The position numbers were made by a program, and so were the translations under genes. Of a DNA stretch of 64,000 bases, positions 95 through 49,401 are shown piece by piece (positions within the stretch are counted from its first letter, which is position 1; each line of letters opens with the position of its first letter). This stretch comes from Neolewinella persica DSM 23188 (lineage in GTDB: Bacteria; Bacteroidota; Bacteroidia; Chitinophagales; Saprospiraceae), in the NCBI RefSeq assembly GCF_000373105.1, contig NZ_KB890431.1, forward strand, positions 1 to 64,000, written 5' to 3'. Under the pieces are notes generated by a model. The model ran no database searches. It was not told the origin of the DNA and saw only the letters and a program-made list of their open reading frames with translations.

Positions 95-213
95 GAGAGA
101 ATACTAGAATGGGAGAATAAGAGGATGATGGAATTGGACGGAAATTGGGATTACGAGCGTGAGCGAGCTTCGCCTTGCGGTAGCTATTCTCTCATTCTGT
201 GAATTTCTCATTC
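95..213. repeat. Inverted period-8 tandem array
   Basis: The left arm (95-134) is read as octamers ending in GAAT: gagagaat, actagaat, gggagaat, aagaggat, gatggaat. The right arm (182-213) is octamers ending in ATTC: agctattc, tctcattc, tgtgaatt, tctcattc. The arms are complementary in sense and could pair as a hairpin. A GC core copy follows 4 bases later. Apart from this array and the core, I see nothing in bases 1-419. Confidence 0.7.
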
Positions 214-217
214 GCTT

Positions 218-239
218 GGGCGGGGCCGCAGGTGCAAAG
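218..239 (-). repeat. GC core repeat copy 1
   Basis: The plus strand reads GGGCGGGGCCGCAGGTGCAA followed by AG, so on the minus strand it matches the family consensus TTGCACCTGCGGCCGCGCCC with one change (GCCCC for GCGCC). It lies directly behind the right arm of the ATTC octamer array. Confidence 0.8.
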
Positions 240-419
240 ACCGTTTTTGGAGCGACGAACCGTCAAATTATACCTGTTTTCCCAGAGTGTAGAGCATGGT
301 CCCCTTATTACCTTTGGATTTGAGGGGTAAGCAGTTCTCTGGAATGTATGGAAACTGGTTCCTACAACGTCCCTATTCTAAAAAGGCTTAAATTCAACCA
401 CACAACCAATTCACCACCT

Positions 420-1982: not shown

Positions 1983-2152
1983 AATTCAGCTATCAGGTTT
2001 CATTAGTATTCAGGACTCAGTTGTCAGCACTCAGAGCCCGCTTCAAGTTTGCCCTAACCCTCCGAATACTGAACCCCGAATGCTGACCCCTGAAAACTGA
2101 CAACTGAATCCTGAACCCTGAAAACTGAACCCCGAATACTGACCCCTAAATC
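1983..2152. repeat. Inverted period-7 tandem array
   Basis: The left arm has heptamers ending in TCAG (aattcag, ctatcag at 1983-1996; tattcag, gactcag, ttgtcag, cactcag at 2007-2034). The right arm (2062-2152) is about 13 head-to-tail heptamers of type CTGANNN (ctgaacc, ccgaatg, ctgaccc, ctgaaaa, ctgacaa, ctgaatc and so on). The arms are complementary (TCAG/CTGA). The right arm runs straight into the promoter of the next gene. Confidence 0.75.
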
Positions 2153-8489: not shown

Positions 8490-8927
8490 ATGCCACAAAT
8501 AAGCGCTAGCATGACGTACGCCCGGTTTTATACCCTTCTGGGGATTTTTACTGCCGTCGCAGTGGTTCTATCCTTGATTTGCCATTTTGTGCTGCCGATC
8601 AATTATGCTATCCCCCTCACCGTTGGTACCATTTTGCTTTTTTGCGCATTTTGTGTCGGGTTGTTTTGGATCGGCAACCGTACTGCCCGGTCCGAAAATA
8701 AGTTCCTTTTTACAAATGTCTTCATGGGGGTAACTATGCTCAAGCTGTTCCTTTGCGGAGGACTTATTGCTGCCTACTATTTTCTGGCAGCGCCGGAAAA
8801 CAGACTCTTTGTCGTACCCTTCTTCCTGAGTTATCTCGTCTATACAATTCTGGAGATCACGTTTCTGATCAAGTTGGCAGGTATTACTACTGGTTTAGTA
8901 AAGGAAGAACAAGAAGCCAGGAGCTAG
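8490..8927 (+). CDS. Four-helix membrane protein, AtpI-like position
   Basis: This 145-residue protein has four predicted membrane helices (FYTLLGIFTAVAVVLSLIC, AIPLTVGTILLFCAFCVGLF, MGVTMLKLFLCGGLIAAYYF, VPFFLSYLVYTILEITFLI). Sequence alone does not name it. Its place after atpZ matches the unnamed subunit-I-like gene often found just before atpB in Bacteroidota. The final codons (KEEQEARS-stop) fall inside a period-7 repeat array, so the C-terminus may have been remodelled by the repeat. The next gene is an unrelated DUF4249 lipoprotein. Confidence 0.7.
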   Translation: MPQISASMTYARFYTLLGIFTAVAVVLSLICHFVLPINYAIPLTVGTILLFCAFCVGLFWIGNRTARSENKFLFTNVFMGVTMLKLFLCGGLIAAYYFLAAPENRLFVVPFFLSYLVYTILEITFLIKLAGITTGLVKEEQEARS

Positions 8928-8973
8928 AAACTATAGATCTGGTTCTTGGCTTCTGGTTACTGACTCTTGTTAA
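8904..8973. repeat. Inverted period-7 array running into a GC core
   Basis: Ten heptamers in exact register: gaagaac, aagaagc, caggagc, tagaaac, tatagat, ctggttc, ttggctt, ctggtta, ctgactc, ttgttaa. The first four are complementary to the later CTGGTTC-type units. The next heptamer begins the GC core itself. The stop codon of the preceding gene is in unit 4. Confidence 0.7.
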
Positions 8974-21752: not shown

Positions 21753-21814
21753 ACCTGCAACAACTGCAACCACTGCAACCGGAGCGAAGCGACCTTGCGC
21801 CAGCGCGCAGCGCC
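21753..21814. repeat. TGCAAC array next to permease stop
   Basis: Period-9 units acctgcaac, aactgcaac, cactgcaac are followed by CGGAGCGAAGCGACC and GCGCGCAGCGCC. The array ends exactly at the stop codon of the ABC permease. The same words recur around parA and ornithine aminotransferase. Confidence 0.7.
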
Positions 21815-23146
21815 TCAATACTTGGAAAACACCCACCCCATCATATCCTTCAACGTACTCTTCTTACCGTAGCTCAGGATACCGACGCGGTAAATGCGCC
21901 CGGCAAGCCAAACCATAAAGGCGGCAAAGGCGATGGTAATCAGCAGGCTGCCAACGATTTGCCAGGCCGGCGGCCCAAACGGTAATCGGGCGGGCATTAC
22001 GATCGGTGCAAATAAGGGCATGAAGCTGGACCCGACGGCCAAGCTGGAATTTGGCGCCTGCAGCGCCGCCATCATGATATAGAAACCAAGGATTACGGGC
22101 AGGATGACGACGAGCGTAAGGCTCTGTCCTTCTCCCATATCGTCGCCCATGGCTGAACCGATGGCGGCAAACATGGCGGCGTACATGAAGTAGCCAGCCA
22201 GGAAGTAGATCAGGAAACAGGGGATGATGACCCACCAGTTCATCTCGTCGAGCCCGGAAATAGCACGTTCGATCATACTCTGCATCTCGTCCGGATCGAT
22301 CTGGGAAGCAGCACTGCCCGCCTGCATCTGCTGGGTGGCTTCGGGGTCAAAACCAAAAATAAGGGAAACGAGGAAAAGTACACCGGGAATCAAGATCATC
22401 CAGGCAACTACCTGCGTAAGGCCAACAGCTCCGACACCTACGATTTTTCCCAACAATAGGGTAGTGGGACGAACCGAGGAAATAACTACTTCCACAATCC
22501 GGTTCATCTTTTCTTCCATAACGGAGCGCATTACCATCATGCCGTAAATGAAGATGGATAGATACATCATGAAGCCCATAATGCTGCCGAGTCCGGCTCC
22601 AATAATACCAGCCATACTGGTGTCGTCGTCTTCTCCTTCTGCCACGGTAACTTTGCGGGCTTTGATGTCAACGTCTGTTTCGAGTGCCGCAATGGCCCTC
22701 TCGTCCAACTCCAGCGCCCTGGTTTTATACTTGCGCATGGCCTTCTCAACCCGCCGACTGATGGCTAATTCGGTGTCCAGGGCCAGTGGCTCGTCACTGA
22801 AGTACTCAACACGGAAGTCTTTAGCTCGCGGATTTCTCACGGAGGGAACCACGAGGATAGCGTTGTAGCTGGTGTCATCGGCCATATTAGCCTTCAACGT
22901 TTCCAGTGGATCCTGGCGGAATTTGAAATAGATGTTCTTACTGTCTGGTAAGACATTGTTGAATATGCCATCCTCGTCAACCACAGCAATACGCTGCTGC
23001 TCGTCGTTGCCATAGGTGAAAATGAACTGAACCACCACGATGAAAACGGCCATGCCCAACGGCATTAGCAACGTTGCCAGAATGAAGGACTTACGACGGA
23101 CGCGGGTTAGATATTCGCGTTGTATAACAAGCCAGAGATTCGTCAT
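21815..23146 (-). CDS. ABC-2 type exporter permease
   Basis: This 443-residue permease of the ABC-2/NatB type starts with NLWLVIQREYLTRVRRKSFILATLLMPLGMAVFIVVV, the characteristic N-terminal amphipathic segment and first helix. A large extracytoplasmic domain (about 50-180) is followed by a cluster of five more helices (IIGAGLGSIMGFMMYLSIFIYG, VGAVGLTQVVAWMILIPGVLFLV, WWVIIPCFLIYFLAGYFMYAAMF and others). The motif VMEEKMNRIVEVVISSVRP is typical of the family. It works with the ATPase encoded upstream, probably exporting Na+ or another small substrate; the substrate is not evident. The upstream spacer holds a GC core and two array arms. Confidence 0.88.
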   Translation of the reverse strand: MTNLWLVIQREYLTRVRRKSFILATLLMPLGMAVFIVVVQFIFTYGNDEQQRIAVVDEDGIFNNVLPDSKNIYFKFRQDPLETLKANMADDTSYNAILVVPSVRNPRAKDFRVEYFSDEPLALDTELAISRRVEKAMRKYKTRALELDERAIAALETDVDIKARKVTVAEGEDDDTSMAGIIGAGLGSIMGFMMYLSIFIYGMMVMRSVMEEKMNRIVEVVISSVRPTTLLLGKIVGVGAVGLTQVVAWMILIPGVLFLVSLIFGFDPEATQQMQAGSAASQIDPDEMQSMIERAISGLDEMNWWVIIPCFLIYFLAGYFMYAAMFAAIGSAMGDDMGEGQSLTLVVILPVILGFYIMMAALQAPNSSLAVGSSFMPLFAPIVMPARLPFGPPAWQIVGSLLITIAFAAFMVWLAGRIYRVGILSYGKKSTLKDMMGWVFSKY

Positions 23147-23404
23147 AGTGAGTTGTTGATTTGGTGAGTCACCGAGGTGCTACCACATATGGCAGGCGTG
23201 ACAAGTGTTATTAATTAATAGGATAATAAATAGTGGGCGCGGACGCAGGATGCAACGGGAGTTCGATGGAGCATAAAATGTAGGTTGTTACGCAAACGAT
23301 GGATGATTGGCCGTGGTAATCGGTAGAAGGTGAGCAAGCGGAGCGCCGTGAATGTTTAGTGCAGCAGCAACTCAGTGACTCACCAACTCTCCAGGTTACT
23401 CACT
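23145..23404. repeat. Inverted period-8 array in the ABC operon
   Basis: The left arm (23145-23176) is atagtgag, ttgttgat, ttggtgag, tcaccgag. The right arm (23365-23404) is cagcaact, cagtgact, caccaact, ctccaggt, tactcact. GTGAG in one arm pairs with CTCAC in the other. The right arm overlaps the last codons of the ATPase gene, and a GC core lies between the arms. Confidence 0.65.
23235..23255 (-). repeat. GC core repeat copy 7
   Basis: The plus strand reads GGGCGCGGACGCAGGATGCA plus A, a consensus copy with one inserted A. It lies between the two genes of the ABC exporter. Confidence 0.7.
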
Positions 23405-24346: not shown

Positions 24347-24386
24347 TATCGGGGTGTCAAGTTATCGGGGTGTCAAGTTGTCGAGC
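24347..24386. repeat. Period-8 array TATCGGGG/TGTCAAGT
   Basis: Five octamers: tatcgggg, tgtcaagt, tatcgggg, tgtcaagt, tgtcgagc. They lie between the divergent ABC ATPase and lipid-kinase-like genes. The words match those of the array at 38115-38344. Confidence 0.65.
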
Positions 24387-25604: not shown

Positions 25605-25691
25605 GGTAATGAATAGAGAATTGGCTAGGCATGGGAGTGCTTGCTACCCTCGTTAAATTCTCGATTCAGGAGGCTCGATTCTTGATTGGCG
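25605..25691. repeat. Inverted period-7 array
   Basis: The right arm (25657-25691) is attctcg, attcagg, aggctcg, attcttg, attggcg. The left arm around 25605-25632 has the complementary GAAT/GAGAATT words at the same period. It lies between the convergent lipid kinase and sulfatase genes. A direct repeat TGCTTGCTACSCTCGTT also occurs near 25638 and 25704. Confidence 0.55.
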
Positions 25692-31131: not shown

Positions 31132-33600
31132 TCACTCAATCTCTAAATAACTCCCCTTAAAGTCCTGATTCCTGGCCTCAATCACCGTTTTCCCCTCACC
31201 CGGAACCATCTCAATCGCTGCCCGGCCATTGGCCATCTGAATAATCTGACTCCGCGTGGGTGTGCCGTAGTTGATGAGTAACTCACCGGCGCCGTTGAGG
31301 TCGAAATAGACGTAGTCTTCGTAGTCGAGTACACGCAGACCGTCCTTGTCGCGCATGGTGGCGACGATGAGGATGTTGCCGTTATCGAGCGGACGGTGGG
31401 TAAGCACAATGTCTTTAGCCACACCGTGGTTGGTGTAGGTGTAGGCGACGGTCAGCTTGTCTTCCGTGACCATCTTGCCGTCTTTGTAGCCCCTGCTGAC
31501 GAAGTCGTTCCTGCCCTCTTCAAATAAGAGCTCCCAGCTAAGCCCCTGGGCGGGGTATTTGCCAAGTTCCCGGGTTTTACGCCCGAGTGAATTTTCATTG
31601 TGCACCAGTTCTACCTCATCGCAATTACTGAAAACGTTCAGTTCCCGCTTTTTGCCATCGGGGCCACTACGCTCCTTCCAGGTATGTGATTCGATGTAGG
31701 TGAACGGCTCTTTGCCCCAGTAGCTTTTGTAGACGTAGTAAGCATCTTTTGGCTTACCGGCGCGGTCCACCAGTCCCTTTTGGTTCAGATATGGAATGGC
31801 GTTCTCTGGCCGAAGTGGGGTGCCGAAGTCTTTGAAAGCCCACTGCGCATTGCCGGCGAACCAGTCGGCGGTTTCTGAAACCGAGAGGTGCCAGTCGAAG
31901 AGGTCCACGATGTAGTTCTCGGACCAGTCGCCACTTTTAGCAACGTTGGCTACATCTACCTGGCTGACGGCCTCGGCCCATTCGTCGGGGTTGACGACGC
32001 CGTCTCCGGTAATTGGCGTTTCGGTGTGCCGGCCCACGTGGCTCGAGCCCCCGTATTCCATGTGCAGGAACCGGGGGTACTTAGGCCGGTTTGCCTCCAG
32101 GGTTTGCTGGTAGTTTTTGTACACGCCGGCGTACCAGCCTGACCAGATGGAAGGAGAGAAAACGTCCACCAGGTCAGCGCCATCGTAGTATTTACGGATG
32201 GCGGTTAGTCGACCCGGGTCAAGTTCGTGCGCTACGTTATTGAGCACCGTCAGAAACCGGTTCATTTCTTTGGGGTCGTCGCCACCCTCGAAGTCGGGCA
32301 GCCAGTAGATCTCATTACCAAGCGACCAGAAGAAGATGCTGGGATGGTTATAATTCTGGGTGATCTGCTCGCGCAGGAGGCGTTCGGTATTGGCTTCCCA
32401 CGCGTCGCCGCCCTTGCCGCCACGGCACCAGGGGAGTTCGTCCCAAAGGATGATGCCCAGCTCATCGCAAGCTTCGTAAATGGCGGGGTCCTGGGGGTAA
32501 TGCCCCAGGCGGAGGAAGTTGACGCCCAGGTCTTTCATCTGCTCGATGTCTCGGCGGTGCAGGCTATCGGGCATGGCTGCTCCGTAGCCGGCGTGCTCCT
32601 CGTGGCGGTGGGTGCCACGCAGTAGCAGGCGCGCTCCGTTAAGGTGGAAGGGGCCGTTGGGGGTGAAGGTGTAAAAGCGGTAGCCGAATTTTTGGGTGAG
32701 TTCGTCGATCACTATGTTATCGGACATGAGTCGAAGGTGTAGCTTGTAGCGGTTGGGGGCGTCGGGCGACCAGAGTTGAGGATTGGTAATGGCGGGGAAC
32801 TCCAGGGTCGTAGTTCCTCCGGAGGTAACCTGGATCGTGGCCTGGCTCACGAATTCGCCAGAGGGGGATTGGATCTCGGCTTCGAGGCCGGCGGAGCCAG
32901 TGAATTGATCGAAGCCGGTGAGGCTGATCTCCAGCTTGGTGGTAGCGGAGGCTGCACTGACTTCGGGGGTGGAGATCCTGAGGTCCGTAAGGTAGGTGGC
33001 GGGGACGGTTTTTAGCCAAACGTCGCGCGTAAGTCCGCCGTAAATGAAGAAGTCGGACTTTTGAGAGGGGATCAGGTCGCGGTCGTATTCGTTGGTGACC
33101 CGCACGGCGAGCTGGTTGTTCCCGGAGGTCAGGTTATCCGTGATGTCGACGTCGAAGCCCACATAGCCGCCTATATGGCCACCTACTTTTTTACCGTTCA
33201 GGAAGACCTCGGCCTTGGTGTTGGCCCCTTCGAAGTAAAGAATTTTTCGTTCCCCGGAAGCTGCGGTAGTCGAAAGGTCACGAACGTACCAGCCAGCGCT
33301 GCGACGGTAGCCGGGCAGCATGTCTACGGCGTCCCATTGGTTCCAGGTGTGGGGCAGGGTAGTGGGTGTTCCTGCGGTTTCCATTGCGGCAGCCGGCGTG
33401 GTGGCGATGGTTTCGTAGTAGGTCCAACCGGCATTGAGGTTACGCTTTGTCCTAGTAGTTGAAGAGACTGTTTGACGATCGGACTCATTGACACGCTGAT
33501 TTTCTGACTCCCCGACTCCCTGACTCTTTTGGGCGGGGTCGCAGGTGCAGAGGGAAAGACCAATAAGCAGGGAGAAGACGACGTAGAAGAACTTTTGCAT
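31132..33600 (-). CDS. GH2 family glycosidase lipoprotein
   Basis: This 822-residue glycoside hydrolase family 2 enzyme is beta-galactosidase/glucuronidase-like. From the N-terminus: a lipoprotein-type signal (VVFSLLIGLSLCTC, Cys18 or 20), a repeat-derived linker, the sugar-binding domain (GWYVRDL, VFLNGKKVGGHIGGYVGF), the Ig-like domain and the TIM barrel with acid/base Glu in FFWSLGNEIYW and probable nucleophile Glu in FLHMEYGG. It should cleave beta-linked sugars of polysaccharides at the cell surface. The start at 33600 is the ATG before the signal; a longer frame to 33819 is ignored. Linker residues 20-45 (DPAQKSQGVGESENQRVNESDRQ) are encoded by a GC core plus a period-8 array. Confidence 0.9.
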   Translation of the reverse strand: MQKFFYVVFSLLIGLSLCTCDPAQKSQGVGESENQRVNESDRQTVSSTTRTKRNLNAGWTYYETIATTPAAAMETAGTPTTLPHTWNQWDAVDMLPGYRRSAGWYVRDLSTTAASGERKILYFEGANTKAEVFLNGKKVGGHIGGYVGFDVDITDNLTSGNNQLAVRVTNEYDRDLIPSQKSDFFIYGGLTRDVWLKTVPATYLTDLRISTPEVSAASATTKLEISLTGFDQFTGSAGLEAEIQSPSGEFVSQATIQVTSGGTTTLEFPAITNPQLWSPDAPNRYKLHLRLMSDNIVIDELTQKFGYRFYTFTPNGPFHLNGARLLLRGTHRHEEHAGYGAAMPDSLHRRDIEQMKDLGVNFLRLGHYPQDPAIYEACDELGIILWDELPWCRGGKGGDAWEANTERLLREQITQNYNHPSIFFWSLGNEIYWLPDFEGGDDPKEMNRFLTVLNNVAHELDPGRLTAIRKYYDGADLVDVFSPSIWSGWYAGVYKNYQQTLEANRPKYPRFLHMEYGGSSHVGRHTETPITGDGVVNPDEWAEAVSQVDVANVAKSGDWSENYIVDLFDWHLSVSETADWFAGNAQWAFKDFGTPLRPENAIPYLNQKGLVDRAGKPKDAYYVYKSYWGKEPFTYIESHTWKERSGPDGKKRELNVFSNCDEVELVHNENSLGRKTRELGKYPAQGLSWELLFEEGRNDFVSRGYKDGKMVTEDKLTVAYTYTNHGVAKDIVLTHRPLDNGNILIVATMRDKDGLRVLDYEDYVYFDLNGAGELLINYGTPTRSQIIQMANGRAAIEMVPGEGKTVIEARNQDFKGSYLEIE
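33469..33524 (-). repeat. Period-8 array inside the GH2 linker
   Basis: Seven octamers mostly ending in GAC or GAT on the plus strand: tgtttgac, gatcggac, tcattgac, acgctgat, tttctgac, tccccgac, tccctgac. On the coding strand they give the linker SQGVGESENQRVNESDRQTV. The GC core follows 6 bases away. Confidence 0.7.
33531..33552 (-). repeat. GC core repeat copy 10, inside CDS
   Basis: The plus strand reads GGGCGGGGTCGCAGGTGCAG plus AG. In the GH2 gene it encodes CTCDPAQ, including the cysteines at the lipoprotein cleavage site. Confidence 0.75.
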
Positions 33601-33763: not shown

Positions 33764-33862
33764 ATGAAATCCACTATGCTGACCTTCTTAAATTGCTCCT
33801 TTATCCTGCTGCTTTGCACCTGCGACCGCGCCCAAAATAGTCAAACAGTCAGGGAATTATAA
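33764..33862 (+). pseudogene. Orphan lipoprotein signal remnant
   Basis: A 32-codon frame reads MKSTMLTFLNCSFILLLCTCDRAQNSQTV.. and stops at 33860. It copies the GH2 signal-plus-linker pattern (CTCDPAQKSQ) because it carries the same GC core and two GTC octamers. No mature protein follows, so it is probably a leftover of a lost lipoprotein gene. Confidence 0.4.
33813..33834 (+). repeat. GC core repeat copy 11
   Basis: TTTGCACCTGCGACCGCGCC plus CA, followed by AAAATA and the octamers GTCAAACA and GTCAGGGA. Confidence 0.75.
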
Positions 33863-36198: not shown

Positions 36199-36966
36199 TT
36201 AAGCGTTTTTCTTAAGAAACTCCTCCGCCAAATTCAAAAAATTAGTAGCCCCCCGGCTACCAGCATTGATCATTACTACCGGCAGGTGCATGTTGGGCGC
36301 CTCGCTGATGCGGGCGTTGCGATGGATGATGGTGTCAAAGACCTTCTCACCAAAGATTTCCCGAACTTTCTCCACCACCATATTCGCCAGACGAAGGCGC
36401 TGATCGTACATACTGAGCAGGATGCCCTCGATCTCAAGTTGCGGGTTGAGTTGTTGTTGCACCAGGTTAATGGTGTTCTGCAGTTTTGTCAGCCCTTCAA
36501 GGGCGAAATATTCGCACTGAACGGGCACCAGTACGGTGTCGGCTGCCGTGAGGGCATTGATGGTGAGTAACCCGAGACTGGGCAGACAATCAATGATGAT
36601 GAAGTCGTAATCATCACGGACTTTATCGATAATGGTGGTTTTCATCACGTCTTCGCGGCGGAAGCGGTTGATGAGTTCTACCTCGGCACCGGCGAGATTG
36701 ATGCCGGCGGGGATGAGGTGGAGATTGGGCGTTTCCGTTTCGAAGATGACCTCGTTCACGTCAAGGTCATTAACCAGTACGTCGTAGATGGTCTCTTCCA
36801 GGTCATCGGAAGGAATGCCCACACCGGAACTGGCGTTACCCTGCGGGTCGGCGTCGACCAGCAGCACCTTCCGTTCCAGAATGGCAAGGCTGGCGGCAAG
36901 GTTAATGGCGGTGGTGGTTTTCCCTACCCCTCCTTTTTGGTTAGCAATGGCGATAACTTTTCCCAT
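36199..36966 (-). CDS. parA: ParA family ATPase, no ParB neighbour
   Basis: This 255-residue ParA/Soj ATPase drives chromosome (or cargo) partition by ATP-dependent binding to DNA. The deviant Walker [19 protein letters not shown] is at residues 10-27; Walker A' [11 protein letters not shown], Walker [14 protein letters not shown] and [12 protein letters not shown] follow. Length and motifs match chromosomal Soj. In Bacteroidota the next gene is usually parB; here the next gene on the strand is a membrane protein and repeat arrays fill the 290-bp gap, so parB must lie elsewhere or this ParA serves another cargo. Confidence 0.9.
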
Positions 36967-36998
36967 GGGCTCGTTTGAGCGGCGAAGTTAGGCATTTA

Positions 36999-37088
36999 GT
37001 CAGAGAGTCATGCAGTCAAATAGTCAGGCAGTCAGATAGTCGGGCGCTACTCCCTGACTGCTTGGCTTTCTGATGGTTTGATTGAGTT
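36999..37088. repeat. Inverted period-8 GTC array
   Basis: Left arm: gtcagaga, gtcatgca, gtcaaata, gtcaggca, gtcagata, gtcgggcg (36999-37046). Right arm: tccctgac, tgcttggc, tttctgat, ggtttgat, tgagttgg (37051-37090), reaching into the GC core. It lies between the divergent parA and map genes. Confidence 0.75.
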
Positions 37089-37106
37089 GGGCGCGGCCGC
37101 AGGCAG
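37089..37106 (-). repeat. GC core repeat copy 12, 3' truncated
   Basis: The plus strand reads GGGCGCGGCCGCAGGCAG; the usual TGCAAAG end is lost. It continues in register from the octamer array. Confidence 0.7.
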
Positions 37107-37166
37107 TTAAGCACTACCCGCTTGAATAACTAACATATGACTTGTTCGACTCTCTGACTACTTCCC

Positions 37167-37174
37167 TATCTTTG
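37167..37174 (+). promoter_or_regulatory. -7 box TATCTTTG before map
   Basis: TATCTTTG is a full TAnnTTTG match. A TTG at 37142-37144 lies 22 bases upstream, slightly beyond the preferred spacing. It is about 57-78 bases before the possible map starts. Confidence 0.5.
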
Positions 37175-37251
37175 CCGCCGTTTAGAACCACCACCGCCTT
37201 AGGGCGTTAGTACACAGAACTAAGCAAAGTATGGGCAGAAAGGACCGCAAG

Positions 37252-38109
37252 ATGATATTCAAAACACCAGAGGAGGTGGAACGCAGCCGCGTTGCCTGTT
37301 TATTGGTGACAGAAACGTTGACAGAAGTAGGTAAAATGCTCCGCCCCGGCCTGACCGGTAAGGAGATCGATGCCTTCGCCGAAGCGTTTATCCGGGACAA
37401 CGGCGCGGTGCCGGGCTTTAAGGGCCTCTATGGCTGCCCGTCCACGTTGTTGGTGAGCAGAAACGAAGAGGTGGTCCACGGGTTACCCGACGAAAAACAG
37501 GTCTTTCAGGATGGTGACATCCTTAGTATCGACTGCGGTACCATTGTGGATGAGTTCTACGGAGACGCCGCTTACACTTTCTGTGTCGGTGACGTAGCGG
37601 AGGACGTAATGGAACTCTGTCGGCACACCAAGCACTCCCTGTATCTAGGGATTGACGCTGCCCGGGAAGGCAAAAGGGTAGGGGACATCAGCTACGCCAT
37701 TCAGCACTATACCGAAAAAACGGGTGGTTACGGCGTGGTCCGTGAGCTGGTCGGGCATGGCCTTGGCCGCAGCCTGCACGAGGCGCCGGATGTGCCTAAT
37801 TTTGGAAAGCGCGGTCGCGGTCCGATTCTTAAGGCGGGCCTGATCATTGCCATTGAACCGATGACAACCCAGGGGCGCAAAGACGTCCACAGCCGCGAAG
37901 ACGGCTGGACGATCATCACGCGGGACGGCAAACCAGCAGCCCATTACGAGCATTCCATCGCCATTACCAAGGGCGGCGGCCCGGCCGACCTGATGAGCGA
38001 TCACCGCCCAATCGAAGAAGCTATCCGGAACAACCCCAACCTTAAAGAGGTAGATAACCTCGATGAGGAATTGGTGATGCGGTACCAGCCAGTGGGAGCG
38101 GCGCTGTAG
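37252..38109 (+). CDS. map: Methionine aminopeptidase type I
   Basis: This 285-residue enzyme removes the initiator methionine from new proteins. The five metal ligands are visible: Asp in DILSIDCGTIV, Asp in EFYGDAAYTF, His in VGHGLGRSLHE, Glu in IAIEPMTT and Glu in the late HYEHSIAIT region. I prefer the ATG at 37252, which begins with the usual MIFKTPEEVERSR and has AAAGGA ahead of it; an upstream ATG at 37231 adds seven polar residues. In the standard order map follows secY and precedes infA. Here secY is absent and a repeat-filled 400-bp gap separates it from infA. Confidence 0.92.
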   Translation: MIFKTPEEVERSRVACLLVTETLTEVGKMLRPGLTGKEIDAFAEAFIRDNGAVPGFKGLYGCPSTLLVSRNEEVVHGLPDEKQVFQDGDILSIDCGTIVDEFYGDAAYTFCVGDVAEDVMELCRHTKHSLYLGIDAAREGKRVGDISYAIQHYTEKTGGYGVVRELVGHGLGRSLHEAPDVPNFGKRGRGPILKAGLIIAIEPMTTQGRKDVHSREDGWTIITRDGKPAAHYEHSIAITKGGGPADLMSDHRPIEEAIRNNPNLKEVDNLDEELVMRYQPVGAAL

Positions 38110-38114
38110 TCGGG

Positions 38115-38344
38115 TTGTCGAGTTGTCAGGTTGTCCGGTTGTCGAGTTGTCCAGATGATGGGCAAGAAATGGAACCTGTCCTCCTGCGGACTTGAATATT
38201 TACGTCACCTTCGCATCAACTGAGGGGCTATCATGTTGCACCGGTCTTATCGGTGTACTTCCAATCCGATAATTGGAACATCCTGACTACCTGAGAACGT
38301 GACACCCCGACAACTTGAGAACTGGATACCCCGATACCCCGACA
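38115..38344. repeat. Inverted period-8 array between map and infA
   Basis: Left arm: ttgtcgag, ttgtcagg, ttgtccgg, ttgtcgag, ttgtccag (38115-38154). Right arm: tcctgact, acctgaga, acgtgaca, ccccgaca, acttgaga, actggata, ccccgata, ccccgaca (38281-38344). TGTC pairs with GACA. About 125 unremarkable bases separate the arms. Confidence 0.75.
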
Positions 38345-41584: not shown

Positions 41585-41588
41585 ATTA

Positions 41589-41671
41589 GTCAAACAGTCA
41601 GGGAGTCAAACAGTCAGAGAGTCGGGTCCGACTTCAGACTGTTTGACTCCCTGACTACTTGACTCTTTGAC
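41589..41671. terminator. Inverted period-8 GTC array after rpoA
   Basis: Left arm: gtcaaaca, gtcaggga, gtcaaaca, gtcagaga. Right arm: tgtttgac, tccctgac, tacttgac, tctttgac. The arms are inverse complements and can form a long hairpin right after the rpoA stop, followed by GAAAGAAAAAG. It belongs to the same word family as the arrays at 36999 and 49215. It may end or weaken transcription before rplQ. Confidence 0.65.
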
Positions 41672-42364: not shown

Positions 42365-42579
42365 GAGAGAATAACAGAATTCGAGAATAGCTGCCACAGG
42401 TGCCGTTCACAGTCCCTCGGGTGACTCACCACAGTAAATTGTTGAACGAATGAGAGGAGAGAGTAGCTGACTTAAGCACTGTTCGCTGCTTTATGCGTGA
42501 AGTATAGGGCGGACAGATGGTCGTAGCTATTCATGGATGCTCCCATTCACTCATTCCACAATTCTCCCATTCACTTTCC
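42365..42579. repeat. Inverted period-8 GAAT/ATTC array
   Basis: Left arm (42365-42388): gagagaat, aacagaat, tcgagaat. Right arm (42525-42579): agctattc, atggatgc, tcccattc, actcattc, cacaattc, tcccattc, then actttcc. The last octamer runs into a GC core. The words are the same as in the array at 95-213, although the flanking genes differ. Confidence 0.75.
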
Positions 42580-42923: not shown

Positions 42924-43487
42924 ATGGCTAAACATCCGGACCACACTTACCTGGTGGCCTTACGGGAAAATGACTCCCGTAAGCTGGAAGAGTTGTACAC
43001 CAACTGTAGTCCCGGGATCATTCGGTGGGTCATGGCCAATAACGGTACCGAAGCTGATGCCCGGGATCTGTTCCAGGAAGCTTTGATCAGTTTGCACGGA
43101 AGTGCCCACAAAACTGGTTTTGAGTTGACGTGTCCGATCAATGCGCTGGTCTTTACCATCTGCCGGAACCAGTGGGTTAATCAACTGCGTAGAAAAAAGA
43201 AAGAAGCGGAGGTAAGAATTATCGAAGCAGAACGATATACTCCTGAAACCGCAACCGAATCAGCCTACGAACGATGGGAAGAGGAGCAGCTGGAGCAAAC
43301 GCGATTGGATGAATCGCTGGCCCAGTTATCCGATACCTGTCGCAAGTTATTACGACTGCTCGGGCGGGGTGTTTCGAGTTCTGATGCTGCGGAGCAGCTA
43401 GGAATGTCGAATGCGAATACGGTTTACCGCCGAAAGAATGCTTGCCTGCAGCGATGGAGGGAAATATTTGACGGCTTGAACGGATAG
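42924..43487 (+). CDS. ECF-type sigma-70 family factor
   Basis: This 187-residue extracytoplasmic-function sigma factor has region 2 with the core-binding and -10 recognition helices (LEELYTNCSPGIIRWVMANNGTEADARDLFQEALISLH, VFTICRNQWVNQLRRKKKEAE) and region 4 helix-turn-helix at the C-terminus (LSDTCRKLLRLLGRGVSSSDAAEQLGMSNANTVYRRKNACLQRW). The next gene starts 2 bases after its stop and encodes a membrane protein of anti-sigma shape, so the pair probably senses a cell-envelope signal. It heads the set containing the subtilase and CHAT protease and may drive them. Confidence 0.88.
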   Translation: MAKHPDHTYLVALRENDSRKLEELYTNCSPGIIRWVMANNGTEADARDLFQEALISLHGSAHKTGFELTCPINALVFTICRNQWVNQLRRKKKEAEVRIIEAERYTPETATESAYERWEEEQLEQTRLDESLAQLSDTCRKLLRLLGRGVSSSDAAEQLGMSNANTVYRRKNACLQRWREIFDGLNG

Positions 43488-43489
43488 TC

Positions 43490-44230
43490 ATGAACGAACG
43501 GGATTACATCACTATTGAAGCTTTTTTGGAAGGTACTCTTTCGGTAGAGGAAGCCAGCGCCGTTGAAGTCCGTGCTGGTCAAGACCCCGAGTTCGCCAGC
43601 ACTCTGGCAGATCGACGCCGGCTCTATGAACACTTGCGGGCAAACGCAGGGGAGGCATCACTCCGCGCTACGCTGGGCCGACTTGGTGACCGACATTTCT
43701 TGCCGCAGGATAAGCAAGCGGTAATAAAGCCTATTGGGCGAAAAAATCGTCGTTGGTTGGTCGGTTTGGTGGCTGCCGCAGCAATCGCCCTGGCGATGAT
43801 ATTTGGTGGCCGCTTATTTGCTCCATCAGGAAATACTTACGAACAATTTGCACAACACCAAGAACTTTCCTTGACCGAACGGGGAACAGATATGGGAGCT
43901 TCTGCGGCTGAAGTGGCCTTCAACGAAGGCCGATACGCCGAAGCTATTGATCGGCTTCAGGCCTATCTGGCCGTTCAGGCCGATGACGAAAGAGCACAGC
44001 TGGCATTGGGCATTTCTTTACTGGAACGTAACCAGGACTCCTTAGCAATCGCTGTATTCGAAAAGATTGCTGGCGGTGAGTCTTCCCTGGCACCGTATGG
44101 AAATTGGTATCTTGCCCTGGCCGCCGTGAAGCGCGGAAATACGGAAGCTGCCTTTTCGTTCTTATCTCTTATCCCTGAATCAGACACCTATTTGGCCAAT
44201 CGCGTCAGGAAACTGAAGGCTACACTCTAA
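43490..44230 (+). CDS. Anti-sigma-like membrane protein with TPR domain
   Basis: This 246-residue protein has a cytoplasmic N-terminus of about 80 residues (DYITIEAFLEGTLSVEEASAVEVRAGQDPEFASTLADRRRLYEHL), which has the helical pattern of anti-sigma domains in this phylum, one membrane helix (WLVGLVAAAAIALAMIFGGRLF, about 86-107), and an outer domain with TPR-type repeats (AAEVAFNEGRYAEAIDRLQAYLAVQADDERAQLALGISLLERNQDSLAIAVFEKI). It lies 2 bases after the sigma factor. I infer that it holds the sigma factor at the membrane and that the TPR part detects a periplasmic partner. Confidence 0.75.
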   Translation: MNERDYITIEAFLEGTLSVEEASAVEVRAGQDPEFASTLADRRRLYEHLRANAGEASLRATLGRLGDRHFLPQDKQAVIKPIGRKNRRWLVGLVAAAAIALAMIFGGRLFAPSGNTYEQFAQHQELSLTERGTDMGASAAEVAFNEGRYAEAIDRLQAYLAVQADDERAQLALGISLLERNQDSLAIAVFEKIAGGESSLAPYGNWYLALAAVKRGNTEAAFSFLSLIPESDTYLANRVRKLKATL

Positions 44231-44319
44231 GTTACTACCGAGGAAAGCTGAACGCTGGCCCTGATATTTATTTTATGTTTTCCATTTATCCCTTATCCCA
44301 AGCTCTGAAACGTTCAACT

Positions 44320-46401
44320 ATGAAAAATCATTTTTACCTATACTTGGTACTATCCCTGTGCCTGAGCACTAGCCTAAGTGGGCAATTCTACAGCGAGCCT
44401 TTTGATGCTGGCCTCAATGGATGGGGAACGCTAGGCTTCGAGTTTGACGATAACGGCGCAGCCGAAACCTTTTCTGGCTGGAACAATCGTTCCAGGATTC
44501 GTTCGGCATCCTTGGGTGGATCCCTGACGTTTACCGGAACAGGAACGAATGCAAGAGCCACGTCACCCGCAATTACTGTACCTGGGAGCTTTAGTAATGA
44601 ACTCTACCTGAGTTTTTATATGTACTTCGGGTCGAATGGTGGATCTCCCAGAGTTGTAGTGAGTGGAGATAATGGTTTCACGCTTGACACCACCCTGCAA
44701 ATTGGTGTATTAGCTGATGAAGAAACTTCGGCGGGTAGTTATCACCTGCTGTCTTTGGGAGCTACGCTGCAGGGACCAGGGGAAGTAACGGTCCAGTTTG
44801 CCCTGGAGGGATCAGCGGACTTTTGGATTTTAGACGATGTACAACTTTACAGCTCCCGTCCCGCACCGGTAACTTTTCCCCGATACGTGGGGGAGACACT
44901 AACCCAATTGGGTAAGCCCTTTGTCGTGGACTCCGCCGGAGCGCCTGCCGTTCCTTTCCAATTGGTGGTCGATTGGTTGCCAAACCGAACCGAAGCTCAA
45001 AAGCAAACTTTCCGGGATTATTACGACCCCATCGTCCTGCATTCCTGCGCCTGTGACCGGCTGGAAGTATGGGAGATGCCCGGCGGTACTTTCTTTGACC
45101 CGGTAACGGGAGAACCCCTGGGAGACCCTTTGGATATTCTGGGTGTAACCTTGCCGGCCTCCGGAATGAATGAGGTCGATGGGCTGGATTTGAATTACTA
45201 CCTATACAACGATCTTGAACTTATCCCCGACGGACCCAACCCTCCCCTCGCTAATGACGAGGTGAACAGTTTCGCTCCTGCCCCCGCCAATGCTGTCAGG
45301 ATTGCCATTCTGGATACCGGACTGGATCTGGATCATCCCGATATGAACGGATTCATTTTCCGGGATGGGGACAGCCTGAACGGAACGGACGATGATAACG
45401 ATTGTCTGGTGGATAATCCATTGGGCTGGAACTACGTAGACCATAATAATAATCCCGACGACGATAATGGGCATGGCACCCACGTGACGGGCATCATTGC
45501 CCGCAATGCGGAGCGTTGTAACGGTTGCGTTATTCAGCTATTGCCTTATAAGACACACGATAGTTATGGAGTCGGTACCCTCTTTGCCGCTGCATGTGGT
45601 ATTCTTCAGGCAGGCGTCTATGATGATGCTGACATCATCAACTGTAGTTGGGGCTTTTACGCTGGAGGGGATGATGGCATCCTCCGTACGGCCATCGACA
45701 CGGTAGCCAACTACGGAGCCCTCGTTGTTGCCGCAGCGGGTAATGACTCACTGAACCTGGTGGCTGACCCGCAATTCCCAGCACTATACAGCCTTGACAA
45801 TATTTTGGCTGTTGGAGCGCACGATACGCTGGCAAGTGGTGAACGGCCATATGCCGAGTTCTCGAATTACCATGATACGGGAGTAGAGATCGCGGCATTC
45901 GGTGTAGAGGTGACCAGTAGTTTACTGGAGGGTACTACCGGTAGCAAATCCGGTACCTCAATGGCTACTCCTTCGGTGGCTGCCGCCGCCGGCATGTATC
46001 ATTGTGAATACCCATGGCAGATTGCTGCCGCCCGGGCGTTTATCCTTGAAAATGCCTTTGAAGAACCAGGGCTCTCCGGATTGTTCCTTGATGGCAATGC
46101 GCTTAACCTTACGGTATTTTGCAAGGGAGACCAGCCCGTGGTTGGAAGACCTGCTACAGATGTAGGCATCAGCATCGCTGCTGGAGGCGAGGTAATTGAA
46201 GTATTCTCCCTTCAGGGCTTGACAGTAACTGAAATTTCGATCACTGATGCTACCGGCAATTTAATTGAGCAGAGAAATCTTAACCAGTTCCCCGCAGGCA
46301 CTAAAGAGACCTTTGATCTTCGGTCGGCAGCAGACGGCCAGTACCTGGTTGTAGTCCGGGCTGCTGGAAAGGTTTACACCCAGCGTTTGGTTAAACGGTA
46401 A
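44320..46401 (+). CDS. T9SS-exported S8 subtilase
   Basis: This 693-residue secreted serine protease has a signal peptide (FYLYLVLSLCLSTSLSGQ), a jelly-roll-like N-terminal region (about 20-190), a linker region, and a peptidase S8 domain (about 300-590) with catalytic Asp332 (RIAILDTGLDLDHPDM), His385 (NGHGTHVTGII) and Ser547 (SGTSMATPSVAAAAG). The C-terminal 75 residues (GGEVIEVFSLQGLTVTEISITDATGNLI..LRSAADGQYLVVVRAAGKVYTQRLVKR) form a T9SS type A sorting domain. The start at 44320 gives the signal; ATG 44275 is too early. It sits between the anti-sigma gene and the CHAT gene, 21 bases from the latter. Confidence 0.9.
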   Translation: MKNHFYLYLVLSLCLSTSLSGQFYSEPFDAGLNGWGTLGFEFDDNGAAETFSGWNNRSRIRSASLGGSLTFTGTGTNARATSPAITVPGSFSNELYLSFYMYFGSNGGSPRVVVSGDNGFTLDTTLQIGVLADEETSAGSYHLLSLGATLQGPGEVTVQFALEGSADFWILDDVQLYSSRPAPVTFPRYVGETLTQLGKPFVVDSAGAPAVPFQLVVDWLPNRTEAQKQTFRDYYDPIVLHSCACDRLEVWEMPGGTFFDPVTGEPLGDPLDILGVTLPASGMNEVDGLDLNYYLYNDLELIPDGPNPPLANDEVNSFAPAPANAVRIAILDTGLDLDHPDMNGFIFRDGDSLNGTDDDNDCLVDNPLGWNYVDHNNNPDDDNGHGTHVTGIIARNAERCNGCVIQLLPYKTHDSYGVGTLFAAACGILQAGVYDDADIINCSWGFYAGGDDGILRTAIDTVANYGALVVAAAGNDSLNLVADPQFPALYSLDNILAVGAHDTLASGERPYAEFSNYHDTGVEIAAFGVEVTSSLLEGTTGSKSGTSMATPSVAAAAGMYHCEYPWQIAAARAFILENAFEEPGLSGLFLDGNALNLTVFCKGDQPVVGRPATDVGISIAAGGEVIEVFSLQGLTVTEISITDATGNLIEQRNLNQFPAGTKETFDLRSAADGQYLVVVRAAGKVYTQRLVKR

Positions 46402-46422
46402 GAGTGGGCCCATTTTTACATT

Positions 46423-49179
46423 ATGAGTATTAATGTTAGATGGCTGGCAGTAGCATTTCTGTTTTTTTGGTGCGGCTTGCAGCCCCTTACCGGCCAGAAC
46501 TGCCCGTCCATCACTGAAGCATTGAAAACCTTATACGCTGCTGAGGACGGTGGTGAGACACTGATTCGGCAAATTAAAGAAAGCTGTCCTGCTGCTGCTG
46601 ATAGCCTGAGCATTATTTTCCATAAACGAAGTGTTTACGCTTATTCTTCGGAAGTCGACCTGGAACGGGCAATATTCTATGCGCTGAAGGCCTTGGAAGC
46701 CCAGGAAGAGGTATATGCAAATACAGCCGCTGAGCCTCTGGGTAAAACGCTTGCCAATCTGGGGCTGTTCTACCGCCTTAGCGGCCAGTATACTACGAGT
46801 TTACCTTATCTGAGGCGAGCCAATATGGTTTTCTCTGAACTCGGTCTTTTCAAACGTACACACTGGAATCAACAACAGATGGTCATGTTGTGGCACGCCA
46901 CGGGAGACATCGGGCGTTCTGAAGAGTTGCTCCGGGTTATGCTGCTTTATGCGCGGAAAGAAAAGGCAAAGGGTGGAAATGACAGGATAGCCACCATGGC
47001 GGAGGCCGAAACCCTGCGTTTACTCGGTGAACAGGCTAACCAGGCAGAGCAGTACGCTGAGGGTTTACCTGACTTTGCTGCTGCGGCTATCCTGTATGAA
47101 GAGTTGGGTGATATAAGGTGGCTTCTGATGAGTTATATGGGGCAGGGGAGAGCCCTTTATCATTTGAAACGATATGATGAGGCCCGGGTGGTAACCAAGA
47201 AAGCACTGAGCTTAGCGGAACGCTATGAATTGAACTTTGATAAAGGAGTGATGTGTAATTTGCTGGCATTGGTTGAAAATGAGCAGTTTATGTTCGAGAA
47301 GGCCAGCGCGTTTCAACAACAAGGAGAAAGCTATGCCCTGGAGGAAAAGAATCCACGACTCTTATCGGTCCTGGTTAACACAGATGCGGAAATTGCTTTG
47401 GGTCAAAAGGACTTTGCTACGGCAAAAAAGCGAAATGCTGAAGCAATTGCGTTACTGACGGACGGTTGGCAATACAACGAAGAAGCGACGCTTCCGATGC
47501 TGGATGAAATTAGCCTCAGCGAATTTAAGCTTGAAATATTTCAGTTCCTTGCCCTTAGGGCAGAGATATTTCATCAGGCCGGAGATGTGGCCGGGGCCAT
47601 GGAAGTAATCCGGCTTACGGATCAAATGGCCGACCTGCTCCGGTTGGATTTTAATGGTCAGGTCAGCAACTTGTTCTGGCGGCAAGAGGCTTTGCCGCTG
47701 TATGAATTAGGCATCGAACTTAGCCGGGAGGCTGACGATTCCGAAAGTGTCTTTTATTTACTGGAGAAAAGTCGATCCATTCTCTTATTGGAAGCAATGG
47801 TGACTGCTGATGTTCGGGAGAACATTTCGCAGGAACTGGCCACTCAACTTGCAACAACGGAGCATAAACTCCGCTCATTACGACGCAGATCAGTTGGTGA
47901 GGAAGGTGATGCCCAGGATCAGACCGCTCGACGAATTGTTGGTTTGAGTGATACGCTACAACAACTGCGAACAGTCGTAGCTGAGCAGTATCCTGTTGCC
48001 CGGGATTTGCTTACTAACCCGAGCCTGGTCGATATAAGTGGTGCCAGAGCGCTCCTCAGTCAAGGGCTTTGGGATCGCCAGGTCCACTTTTTCATGGGGG
48101 ATAAAAGAGCAACGGCGTTTAGCCTTACCGCCACCGAAGTAAAGACAATTGACCTCGGACCAACGGAGGTGCTGGATACGCTTGTGCGCCGCGTATTAGC
48201 CTTTTACACCAGCGCAGGGGCTATCGATCAGGCACCGGCAGATTATATCGCCGCCAGCCATGCTGCCTATCAAAGCTTACTTGCCCCATTGAAGGTCAGC
48301 CCAGGTGAACGGTTGCTGATTATACCAGACGGAATCTTAGCCTATTTACCTTTTGCGGCCCTGGTTTCAGACCTTGAAGATGCGTCACTCGCAACCGCCG
48401 CTTATTTGATCCGCCGAAATCAGGTTAGTTTTGCTCAGTCAACTACTGTACTGGGCCGACAACAAAAAGGAAGGAAAATGGTAAACGGTGACGCCTTTGC
48501 CTTTAGCCCCTTTATTGCTGTACTACCTAACAATACTGCTCCGGCCTTACCCTTTAGTGAATCTGAGGTTACGGGGTTTAAAGATCACTATTCTGGCCTC
48601 TGGCTGACTGACACCGCCGCTTCGCGGAAGGGGTTGTTGTCCGGTCTCCCTGGCCGATCGATCATCCACCTCTCAACCCATGCGTACGCCTCCACCGATC
48701 AACACGAACAGCCGCGAATACTGACGGCGACGGAGCCGGTTTATTTGTCTGATATTTACGGCTTGAGGCTACGGGCCGATCTGGTAACCCTAAGTGCCTG
48801 CCAGAGCAATATCGGACCGTTGGCGCAGGGAGAAGGCGTACTGGGTCTTGGCCGTGCCTTTACTGCTGCGGGGGCTGGCGGTGTAATTGCTAGTCTATGG
48901 TCGCTCAATGATCGGGCTACGTCGGAAATTATAACAGGTTTTTATGACCAGTTAGCCGGAGGAGTACAAAAACCCGAAGCCCTGCATCAGGCACAACTGG
49001 CTTACCTGAACCGGGAGGATCTGCCCGCCTACCTGAAGTCTCCCTACTACTGGGCCGGACTGACTTATTACGGTAACGCCGGCAAGTTACCTGCTGGCGG
49101 AATTCCTCGATGGGTGTGGGGACTTTTGTTCCTCGCGGCGGGTGGCTTAGCCGTTTGGCGCTGGTTTGGGCGTAAGTAG
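46423..49179 (+). CDS. CHAT domain protease with TPR repeats
   Basis: This 918-residue protein has a signal peptide or N-terminal anchor (WLAVAFLFFWCGLQPLTG), TPR-type helical repeats (about 70-420), a coiled region (ENISQELATQLATTEHKLRSLRRRS), and a C-terminal CHAT domain (about 600-880; caspase-like clan). The catalytic dyad is His753 in IIHLSTHAYA and Cys793 in LSACQSN, with LLIIPDGILAYLPFAAL and GGVIASLWSLND as supporting motifs. The protein ends in one membrane helix (VWGLLFLAAGGLAVWRWFG), so the protease domain is probably tethered to the outer face of the inner membrane. It follows the subtilase by 21 bases; the two proteases may act in sequence. Confidence 0.88.
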   Translation: MSINVRWLAVAFLFFWCGLQPLTGQNCPSITEALKTLYAAEDGGETLIRQIKESCPAAADSLSIIFHKRSVYAYSSEVDLERAIFYALKALEAQEEVYANTAAEPLGKTLANLGLFYRLSGQYTTSLPYLRRANMVFSELGLFKRTHWNQQQMVMLWHATGDIGRSEELLRVMLLYARKEKAKGGNDRIATMAEAETLRLLGEQANQAEQYAEGLPDFAAAAILYEELGDIRWLLMSYMGQGRALYHLKRYDEARVVTKKALSLAERYELNFDKGVMCNLLALVENEQFMFEKASAFQQQGESYALEEKNPRLLSVLVNTDAEIALGQKDFATAKKRNAEAIALLTDGWQYNEEATLPMLDEISLSEFKLEIFQFLALRAEIFHQAGDVAGAMEVIRLTDQMADLLRLDFNGQVSNLFWRQEALPLYELGIELSREADDSESVFYLLEKSRSILLLEAMVTADVRENISQELATQLATTEHKLRSLRRRSVGEEGDAQDQTARRIVGLSDTLQQLRTVVAEQYPVARDLLTNPSLVDISGARALLSQGLWDRQVHFFMGDKRATAFSLTATEVKTIDLGPTEVLDTLVRRVLAFYTSAGAIDQAPADYIAASHAAYQSLLAPLKVSPGERLLIIPDGILAYLPFAALVSDLEDASLATAAYLIRRNQVSFAQSTTVLGRQQKGRKMVNGDAFAFSPFIAVLPNNTAPALPFSESEVTGFKDHYSGLWLTDTAASRKGLLSGLPGRSIIHLSTHAYASTDQHEQPRILTATEPVYLSDIYGLRLRADLVTLSACQSNIGPLAQGEGVLGLGRAFTAAGAGGVIASLWSLNDRATSEIITGFYDQLAGGVQKPEALHQAQLAYLNREDLPAYLKSPYYWAGLTYYGNAGKLPAGGIPRWVWGLLFLAAGGLAVWRWFGRK

Positions 49180-49214
49180 GAACAGACAGCGCTTAACGTT
49201 GTACGGCCTTATGA

Positions 49215-49401
49215 GTCAGCTAGTCAGGCAGTCAAATAGTCAAGCAGCTGCGTACTTTTTGACTGATTGACTAATACGGCGCGCGCGCAGGTGCAAAGTA
49301 AGAGAACAAGGAAGGCCAGCAAAGTTACTCCGGAGAGCAAAAGAATCAGCGTACTGCACACTCCCTGACTATCGGACTGTTTTACTATTTGACTCCCTGA
49401 C
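49215..49401. repeat. Inverted period-8 GTC arrays around a GC core
   Basis: First arm: gtcagcta, gtcaggca, gtcaaata, gtcaagca (49215-49246), with complementary tttttgac, tgattgac (49256-49271) before the core. Second set: tccctgac, tatcggac, tgttttac, tatttgac, tccctgac (49362-49401), which encodes the last residues (GQGVK) of the gene on the minus strand. Confidence 0.7.
49278..49298 (-). repeat. GC core repeat copy 16
   Basis: The plus strand reads GGCGCGCGCGCAGGTGCAAA plus G. Two bases of the central part differ from the consensus, but both outer ends are perfect. Confidence 0.75.

Follow-up and report, generated by a model that had tools for sequence, protein, structure and literature searches.

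In bacteria, short DNA words that recur at a fixed step include the met boxes of MetJ and the boxes of ParG, both sites of ribbon-helix-helix proteins with a step of 8 bp. Heptamer-type tandem repeats are also known from bacterial genomes, without an agreed role, and their period has been attributed to polymerase slippage (PMC4679880). More broadly, prokaryotic long simple sequence repeats (SSRs) with units of 5-11 nt are biased to heptamers, a preference put down to the contact length of the polymerase (Mrazek 2007, as cited in PMC4679880). The TAACTGA repeats of Beggiatoaceae, Cyanobacteria and some Bacteroidetes are built from one fixed heptamer, lie in BOGUAY mostly just upstream of start codons and include one inverted repeat among their sets; the parts of that study covered here describe neither octamers nor a systematic second arm (PMC4679880). 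At parS of pSM19035, 7-10 consecutive 7-bp WATCACW repeats, direct or inverted, overlap promoters, and four contiguous repeats are required for full activity (PMC9499535). Here we describe arrays of 7- or 8-bp units in Neolewinella persica DSM 23188, in a 64,000-nucleotide stretch comprising positions 1-64000 of contig NZ_KB890431.1 (C19) of its 7.08 Mb genome (the window; the genome is G000 below). Each unit carries a fixed short word and variable filler, and about half of the arrays are followed by a second, complementary arm. Comparison of orthologous arrays points to conservation of the word itself as DNA.

The arrays resemble long SSRs in being tandem, in their bias towards heptamers and in the occurrence of exact AGTCA-word octamers in many phyla, and their periods of 7 and 8 lie well beyond chance, with shuffled sequence giving close to none. 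Unlike long SSRs, which copy one unit, they vary from unit to unit (distinct units make up a mean fraction of 0.88 in G000 and 0.60 at the 105 outside loci among the matches listed, described below), use one word at many loci and carry a handed inverted arm in about half of cases. Nor are neighbouring units generally the most alike, although those of TTGCA and GTAGT arrays are more alike. With the TAACTGA repeats they share a 7-bp period, a mostly intergenic position, mixtures of related heptamers and lineage-specific placement, and TAACTGA contains CTGA, as does the TCAG/CTGA lexicon of the window (PMC4679880); the heptamer units listed here are TCAGNNN/CTGANNN and other words. Like the centromere and operator arrays of ribbon-helix-helix (RHH) proteins, they place four or more contiguous boxes with a conserved word at an exact 7- or 8-bp pitch, in direct or inverted order (PMC9499535). 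The pSM19035 RHH arrays occupy six plasmid sites with one word per protein (PMC9499535), whereas the present arrays are spread over many sites, use many words and have arms that match in their filler as well. A preliminary description of this DNA knew of no named family with such an architecture, a view that has to be revised, since the class has kin in heptamer long SSRs and, among Cyanobacteria and Bacteroidetes, in the TAACTGA repeats (PMC4679880). The architecture itself was not described in any title or abstract opening that we found, subscription papers and most full texts lying outside that scope.

The preliminary description had read twelve spacer intervals of the window as word arrays with an exact 7- or 8-bp period. 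When a 4-base word on a fixed period was scored in each interval against 300 of its own dinucleotide shuffles, all twelve scored above their shuffles and the best period among 4-12 was 7 or 8 in 12/12. Nine reached the floor of the test (P ~0.003); the three for which Table 1 gives P values were weak alone, single shuffles outscoring them. The enrichment extends to genome scale. In 404 kb (the window plus C1:1-340000), spacer clusters of five or more units numbered 16 at period 7 and 33 at period 8, against 0.1 each in shuffles, with 0 at periods 4-6 and 10-13, 1 at 9 and, at the doubled periods, 8 at 14 and 3 at 16. Adding C2:1-340000 (744 kb in total) raised these to 32 and 47, against none in shuffled spacers, with 4 at period 9 and 0 at 5, 6 and 10-13. 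Autocorrelation of G000 spacers, which the same description had proposed as a check, peaked at lags 8/16/24 and 7/14/21, plus 4, 12 and 15. Called coding sequence (354,564 bases) held 9 clusters at period 7 and 7 at period 8, and also 3, 6 and 10 at periods 6, 9 and 12. Since 16 of 73 regions in a looser list fall inside called open reading frames (ORFs), two of them within the twelve intervals (33496, 42529), ORF calling is imperfect. A tandem block of ATTCTCG heptamers with inner loops and N positions was also seen inside a called ORF at L010:1632-2051. By spacer type, arrays occur in 14/40 convergent, 23/139 tandem and 9/37 divergent spacers. At least one period-7/8 cluster was found in 11 of 13 sampled genus members and none in G006 or G011; G006 nonetheless has an array between rpoA and rplQ.

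The combination of a fixed word with variable filler, proposed as the contrast to ordinary microsatellites, held over 864 kb of G000, where 58 of 99 strict arrays had all units distinct and 2 were near-exact. Vocabularies common to distant sites were likewise borne out. Read by eye, the octamer words of G000 include AGTCANNN, GTTGTCNN, GAATNNNN, GGTAGTCT, ATTGGTCT, CTTGTGGT and GAGTNNGT, and its heptamer words include TCAGNNN, ATCGAGA, GTTGCAG and GTAGNNN. The AGTCA word is present at dozens of loci; arrays of it were matched in G000, G002, G003, G007 and G009, with no match in G001, G004, G005, G006, G008, G010, G011 or G012. Its filler is patterned, the next two bases being purines in 153/164 and 154/164 units and the last base A in 8/164. 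Adjacent AGTCA units were identical 9 times, against 10.9 ± 2.9 when units were shuffled over all arrays; neighbours thus share filler no more than lexicon-wide draws do, and nearest-neighbour slippage does not maintain these arrays. At pitch 8 there were 10, 8, 15, 4 and 2 AGTCA runs of 2, 3, 4, 5 and 6 units, and no runs of 2-4 units at pitch 6, 9 or 10. Three-frame stop codons were considered as a purpose of the words and rejected, as judged from the words alone, GAAT and GTTGTC containing no stop.

Orthologous spacers carry the main result. The genus is represented by 21 genomes (the source is G000, and congeners are numbered G001 and so on), of which the nearest to the source is 79% identical on a chosen protein, so that array births, excisions and target duplications are not visible at this distance. 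Arrays were identified by eye. G000, G002, G021 and G007 have a common start point for the array of spacer 36967-37230. Over 30 unit pairs the word columns A, G, T and C were identical in 27, 30, 27 and 30 (114/120), and filler columns 6-8 in 10, 15 and 11 (0.33, 0.50 and 0.37; 36/90 in total). Non-corresponding units gave 0.31, 0.53 and 0.31 for the same filler columns; corresponding filler is therefore no more alike than non-corresponding filler, and has saturated while the AGTC word was kept. An opposite arm accompanies the array in G000 and G007 (scores 12 and 14). None was found within 200 bp in G002 or G021 (scores 7 and 5; shuffles 5-8), so arm-templated correction cannot explain word retention there. 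The same spacer holds a GTCTGGTA variant in G027 and no array in G003. Two other spacers, with fewer units, point in this direction too: between rpoA and rplQ, G004 and G006 agree in TTAGT at 20/20 positions and in filler at 5/12, and at hisS, where the array sits directly before a TACCTTTG-type box, G000, G002 and G021 agree in ATC at 45/45 and in the other columns at 9, 9, 7 and 7 of 15 (arm scores 9, 9 and 6). What the three chosen spacers show is filler saturating first, not the frequency of word loss.

Array slots recur, and their words change between species. At or near the rpoA stop, hairpins before rplQ are spelled AGTCA with period 8 in G000, TAGA with 7 in G009, TAGAAAC with 7 in G007, GTAG with 8 in G002 and TTAGT with 8 in G004 and G006; they are weaker in G001 and G010, built from other words in G021 and G027, and absent from G005 and G008. 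On the 3' side of panB, G000 has GTTGTC octamers, G003 TTCAG heptamers and G020 GTTGGTGC-type octamers, with no array in G021, G007, G002, G009, G008 or G005. The rbfA-rhomboid spacer carries TCAG heptamers in G000, GTAG heptamers in G021 and TTAGT octamers in G007, and none in G002, G003 or G005. Slot 23147-23395 holds differently spelled arrays in G000, G007, G003 and G027, those of G000 and G007 being perhaps related, with a possible remnant in G021 and none in G002; a GC core, considered below, is recognisable there in all six.

A second, complementary arm had been said usually to follow. The arms are real, at a frequency of about half rather than as the usual case: 56 of 103 spacer arrays have a partner scoring at least 11 inside 200 bp, compared with 0 when flanks are shuffled and 9 when another array's flanks are used. 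These hairpins are strongly handed. Among 80 non-overlapping hairpins, one per place, from 13 genus genomes (53 from G000), the 5' arm has G > C in 72, G < C in 3 and equal numbers in 5, and C makes up 11.7% of the 5' arm against 26.1% of the flanks. Broken down by spacer type, the bias stands at 39:1 (tandem), 13:0 (convergent), 15:1 (divergent) and 5:1 (undetermined); as an inverted repeat shows the same 5' arm from either strand, it is independent of gene direction. Inverted repeats other than arrays in these spacers were 92 and 80 for the two hands, plus 541 ties that we think stem largely from masked N runs and palindromes, and purine content alone gives a weaker bias (52 to 22). The loops are long (median 51.5 nt). 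They often hold AGCTGCCGCAGGTGCC-like and GCTCGCTNCGCTCG motifs, as at L021:11834-11944 and L047:9754-10448, the former motif having GCCGCAGGTGC in common with the GC core.

That several arrays start right after stop codons, and that convergent spacers are the richest in them, is what would be expected if the arrays acted as RNA hairpins 3' of genes, as terminators, attenuators or mRNA-stabilising stems, and a role at RNA ends was implied by the preliminary description. Hairpins kept as RNA should show G.U mismatches in excess of A.C. On the transcribed strand of tandem spacers we counted 48 of each; in spacers that favour neither strand the counts were 20 against 11 (convergent), 14 against 15 (divergent) and 7 against 10 (undetermined). 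Folding energies, the second check proposed, were ordinary, with a mean RNA z of -2.02 for array spacers (n=82) against -1.85 for array-free spacers (n=60), and z below -2 in 43% and 33%, respectively. Arrays also occur in divergent spacers and between rpoA and rplQ. There is no sign of selection on RNA pairing: given the 48:48 mismatches and ordinary folding, the arrays are a DNA feature rather than an RNA hairpin. We rejected the hairpin or terminator role on these two results and the arrays in divergent spacers, and regard it as quite improbable.

The geometry of the hairpins, with C-poor repeats on the 5' side, a loop and G-poor repeats on the 3' side in 72/80, recalls telomerase-like addition, in which a reverse transcriptase would add C-poor 7/8-nt repeats to broken 3' ends that are then joined head to head, and a bacterial reverse transcriptase that makes tandem repeats, DRT10, has been reported (PMC12632851). 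RVT_1 matches, however, were found in just 12 of the 21 genus genomes. We rejected this explanation, the least probable of those considered, because six array-bearing genomes (G001, G006, G007, G010, G012 and G027) have no RVT_1 match, an absence that is weaker for the fragmented drafts G007 and G027. Moreover, the arms match in filler, which independent additions would not produce.

REP/BIME elements with RAYT transposases are dispersed intergenic inverted repeats. Inverted arms with long loops, lineage-specific presence and seven Y1_Tnp matches in G000 would accord with foldback elements, similar to miniature inverted-repeat transposable elements, whose termini are tandem arrays and which are moved by a Y1 (RAYT-type) or other transposase. 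Unlike REP/BIME elements, the arrays have no single conserved palindrome, and none of the 11 Y1_Tnp loci inspected (25 fetched; two of the seven G000 matches included) had an array pair or hairpin array flanking the gene, on which basis RAYT mobility was rejected; one weak heptamer stretch was seen at locus L053. Arrays of the same word share filler strings between loci barely above chance (AGTCA bigrams 79 against 56.5 ± 8.7 and trigrams 4 against 2.3 ± 1.7; GAAT trigrams 2 against 0.2; TCAG trigrams 0 against 1.0) and therefore do not resemble mutual copies. Copying between loci was rejected on this slight sharing, and mobile elements of the foldback kind appear very unlikely.

Beyond the genus, a contig scan for four copies of AGTCANNN returned at least 116 stretches from many phyla. 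Among the matches listed, 112 places (105 loci) lie outside Lewinella and Neolewinella, and in these the inner three filler positions were identical in 77, of two kinds in 30 and of three kinds in 5, with a downstream TGACTNNNTGACT arm in 1/112. The 12 Lewinella/Neolewinella places (11 loci) among the same matches gave 0, 6 and 6, with the arm in 5/12, and a hand-picked 59 of the at least 116 stretches gave the same picture. The 105 outside loci also contained 46 period-7 arrays, against 1, 4, 8, 3 and 1 at periods 5, 6, 9, 10 and 11; period 7 thus far outnumbers the others and was not itself a basis of selection, although an octamer array was. Arms are rarer at the outside loci among the matches listed (23 of 154) than in G000 (56 of 100), and the other genus members give 30 of 83; handedness is weak outside (15:7), against 53:0 in G000 and 25:4 in the other members. 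Two hairpins were found in genomes of the same order outside the genus, both opposite-handed. The preference for periods 7 and 8 looks general, while Neolewinella and Lewinella stand out through much greater filler diversity, many more arms and a much stronger handedness.

Two explanations remain to be weighed closely. The one we place first, tentatively, is that the arrays were born by slippage and inverted copying and that their words are kept by cooperative DNA binding at a 7-8 bp pitch. Where a stretch of spacer tolerates it, slippage by 7-8 nt would create the array, and template switching would copy it in inverted form, so that the second arm has filler to match. A constraint from DNA binding, sensitive just to a word of 3-5 bases recurring at exactly 7 or 8 bp, would then let the filler drift while the words stay. 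The likeliest readers would be small proteins of one family that bind DNA cooperatively in 7/8-bp steps, in the manner of RHH proteins on tandem boxes, with different words corresponding to different paralogues of this putative family. The RHH-like character is proposed because RHH sites are marked by a 7-bp step, by a requirement for at least four units and by an arrangement that is either direct or inverted (PMC9499535). A word-reading constraint is ranked first because slippage and template switching keep no word while filler is being lost in an arm-less array.

The other explanation is mutation alone: 7/8-nt slippage and out-of-register template switching would keep words uniform and shuffle the filler, the arrays being neutral and without a reader. 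We hold it with much the same reserve and rank it close behind, because exchange between units or loci could still act. The heptamer bias of bacterial long SSRs, with its link to polymerase contact length (Mrazek 2007, as cited in PMC4679880), speaks for it, as do the period bias at loci of other phyla, the gain, loss and change of words at the same slot, and the occurrence of exact arrays (GGTTGCG in G027, AGTCAAGT in G000:C33). Within-array filler identity of TCAG is independent of lag, at 13, 15 and 15 over lags 1-3 against 8.2, 7.1 and 5.8, and that of AGTCA is in excess at lags 2 and 3. Mutation alone is harder to reconcile with spacer 36967-37230, where the word stays while filler correspondence is lost, also in the arm-less G002 and G021. 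AGTCA identity is not raised at lag 1, near-exact arrays are few (2/99), and one word at dozens of loci (AGTCA) and the 72:3 handedness are left unexplained.

Several observations weigh against maintenance by DNA binding. Filler identity is raised in AGTCA arrays at lag 2 (13 against 8.3 ± 2.7) and lag 3 (11 against 5.2 ± 2.2), and in TCAG, GTAGT and TTGCA arrays at lags 1-3, the pattern that exchange inside arrays would produce. The four-unit mode is specific to AGTCA, run lengths of TTGTC and TTGCA just declining. Corresponding filler at rpoA-rplQ and hisS is still somewhat more alike than other filler, so that full saturation is seen at 36967-37230 alone, and the three spacers were picked because the same word was visible in both species. 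The reader protein is a candidate proposed without a search for RHH or other binder genes. Many words per genome, and slots that change their word, require many readers. Finally, complementarity of filler between the arms is unneeded for binding, and binding alone does not predict handedness.

Several arrays of the window end in register with an 18-bp GC core, GGCGCGGCCGCAGGTGCA, as the preliminary description had noted. With up to 2 mismatches allowed, the 7.08 Mb genome contains 1517 copies of the core, compared with 2 of the reversed pattern, and a purine-rich tract often follows the core. About half of the cores lie in called coding sequence (100/205; up to 3 mismatches, 744 kb). In density it resembles a DNA uptake sequence or a HIP1-like element. 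The association with arrays is mostly local to the window: of 107 spacer arms in 744 kb, 11 have a core no farther than 20 bp away, where random spacer positions give 5.0 of 107 beside a core and a further 5.8 in overlap with one, and for 66 the distance exceeds 500 bp (65.5 at random). The sole clear excess is of arms 5-20 bp 5' of the core (8 against 1.8). Arrays and core as one element were rejected on this general lack of adjacency, and the GC core is largely a separate element. Taken as a whole, the preliminary description is upheld for the period, the word and filler, the arms and the shared vocabularies, and not for the lack of kin, the tie to the GC core or the RNA ends.

Table 1. Word arrays and GC cores in the window (positions 1-64000).
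Position	Feature	Context	P or remark
95..213	GAATNNNN octamer array (5' arm) with ATTC arm (3')	GC core next at 219	
1983..2152	Heptamer hairpin TCAGNNN / CTGANNN	Between stop of 5'-nucleotidase-like gene and TACCTTTG box before PhnA-domain gene	
within 1983..2152	Inverted repeat TTCAGGACTCAGTTGTCAG / CTGACAACTGAATCCTGAA	Part of the heptamer hairpin	
8904..8973	Weak heptamer hairpin	Stops at GC core 8974	P 0.013
23145..23404	Octamer arms GAGTTNNN / ACTCACCA	Flanking GC core 23236	P 0.017 alone
24347..24386	TTATCGGGGTGTCAAG x2.4, octamer array of GTCNN type		
25605..25691	Weak heptamer array, ATTCTCG type		P 0.007
33469..33524	GACTNNNN octamers, 8 units, 3 mismatches	Precedes GC core 33532	
33834..33855	Short AGTCA stretch	Next to minus-strand core	Absent from the earlier list
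36997..37160	AGTCANNN octamer array with complementary arms	Between ParA-type gene 36199-36966(-) and gene 37231-38109(+)	
38106..38344	GTTGTCNN octamer array with GACAACNN arm		
41588..41671	AGTCANNN / TGACT hairpin	Directly after rpoA stop, before rplQ	
42365..42579	GAAT / ATTC octamer arms	End at GC core 42581	
49214..49401	AGTCANNN octamers with TGACT-type arms	Arms flank GC core 49278	
219, 517, 8974, 14105, 27229, 37090, 42581, 62686	GC core, examples		

The gene at 36199-36966 on the minus strand is of the ParA type (PF13614, AAA_31), and the next long ORF on its strand, 34414-35907, has a weak PMT_2 match and is not parB. That a ParA-type gene stands beside the best-conserved array is coincidence, not evidence. 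A further family of spacer repeats, CTGCAAC plus GGAGCGNAGCGACC, lies at 36099-36187 and 21763-21798. Elsewhere in the window, a 1846-aa ORF on the minus strand (15462-21002) contains internal repeats at ~350 bp spacing, and a sigma-70 region 2 protein, a TPR protein and a TPR-CHAT protein are encoded in one plus-strand stretch, 42924-49179.

Orthologous arrays separate word from filler; random filler with a kept word, as seen at one spacer, is a pattern that plain slippage does not predict, and a role for the word thereby becomes testable. The handedness of the hairpins (72/80) is a quantitative constraint on any model of the origin of such inverted repeats. An extension of maintenance by DNA binding, which we consider unlikely, is a word code at the DNA level that spans whole genomes of this genus. 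In it, hundreds of spacers, by extrapolation from the 79 strict clusters of 744 kb, would carry handed, often inverted arrays whose words stay at their exact step while the filler drifts to saturation. The words would be lineage dialects read by a family of filament-forming DNA-binding proteins, and chromosome-wide sites would arise, vanish and be respelled at unchanged slots. Should such a code be real, the conserved AGTC array upstream of the ParA-type gene would be consistent with a centromere-like or nucleoid-organising system of many sites. A reader, if there is one, would have hundreds of target sites in each genome.

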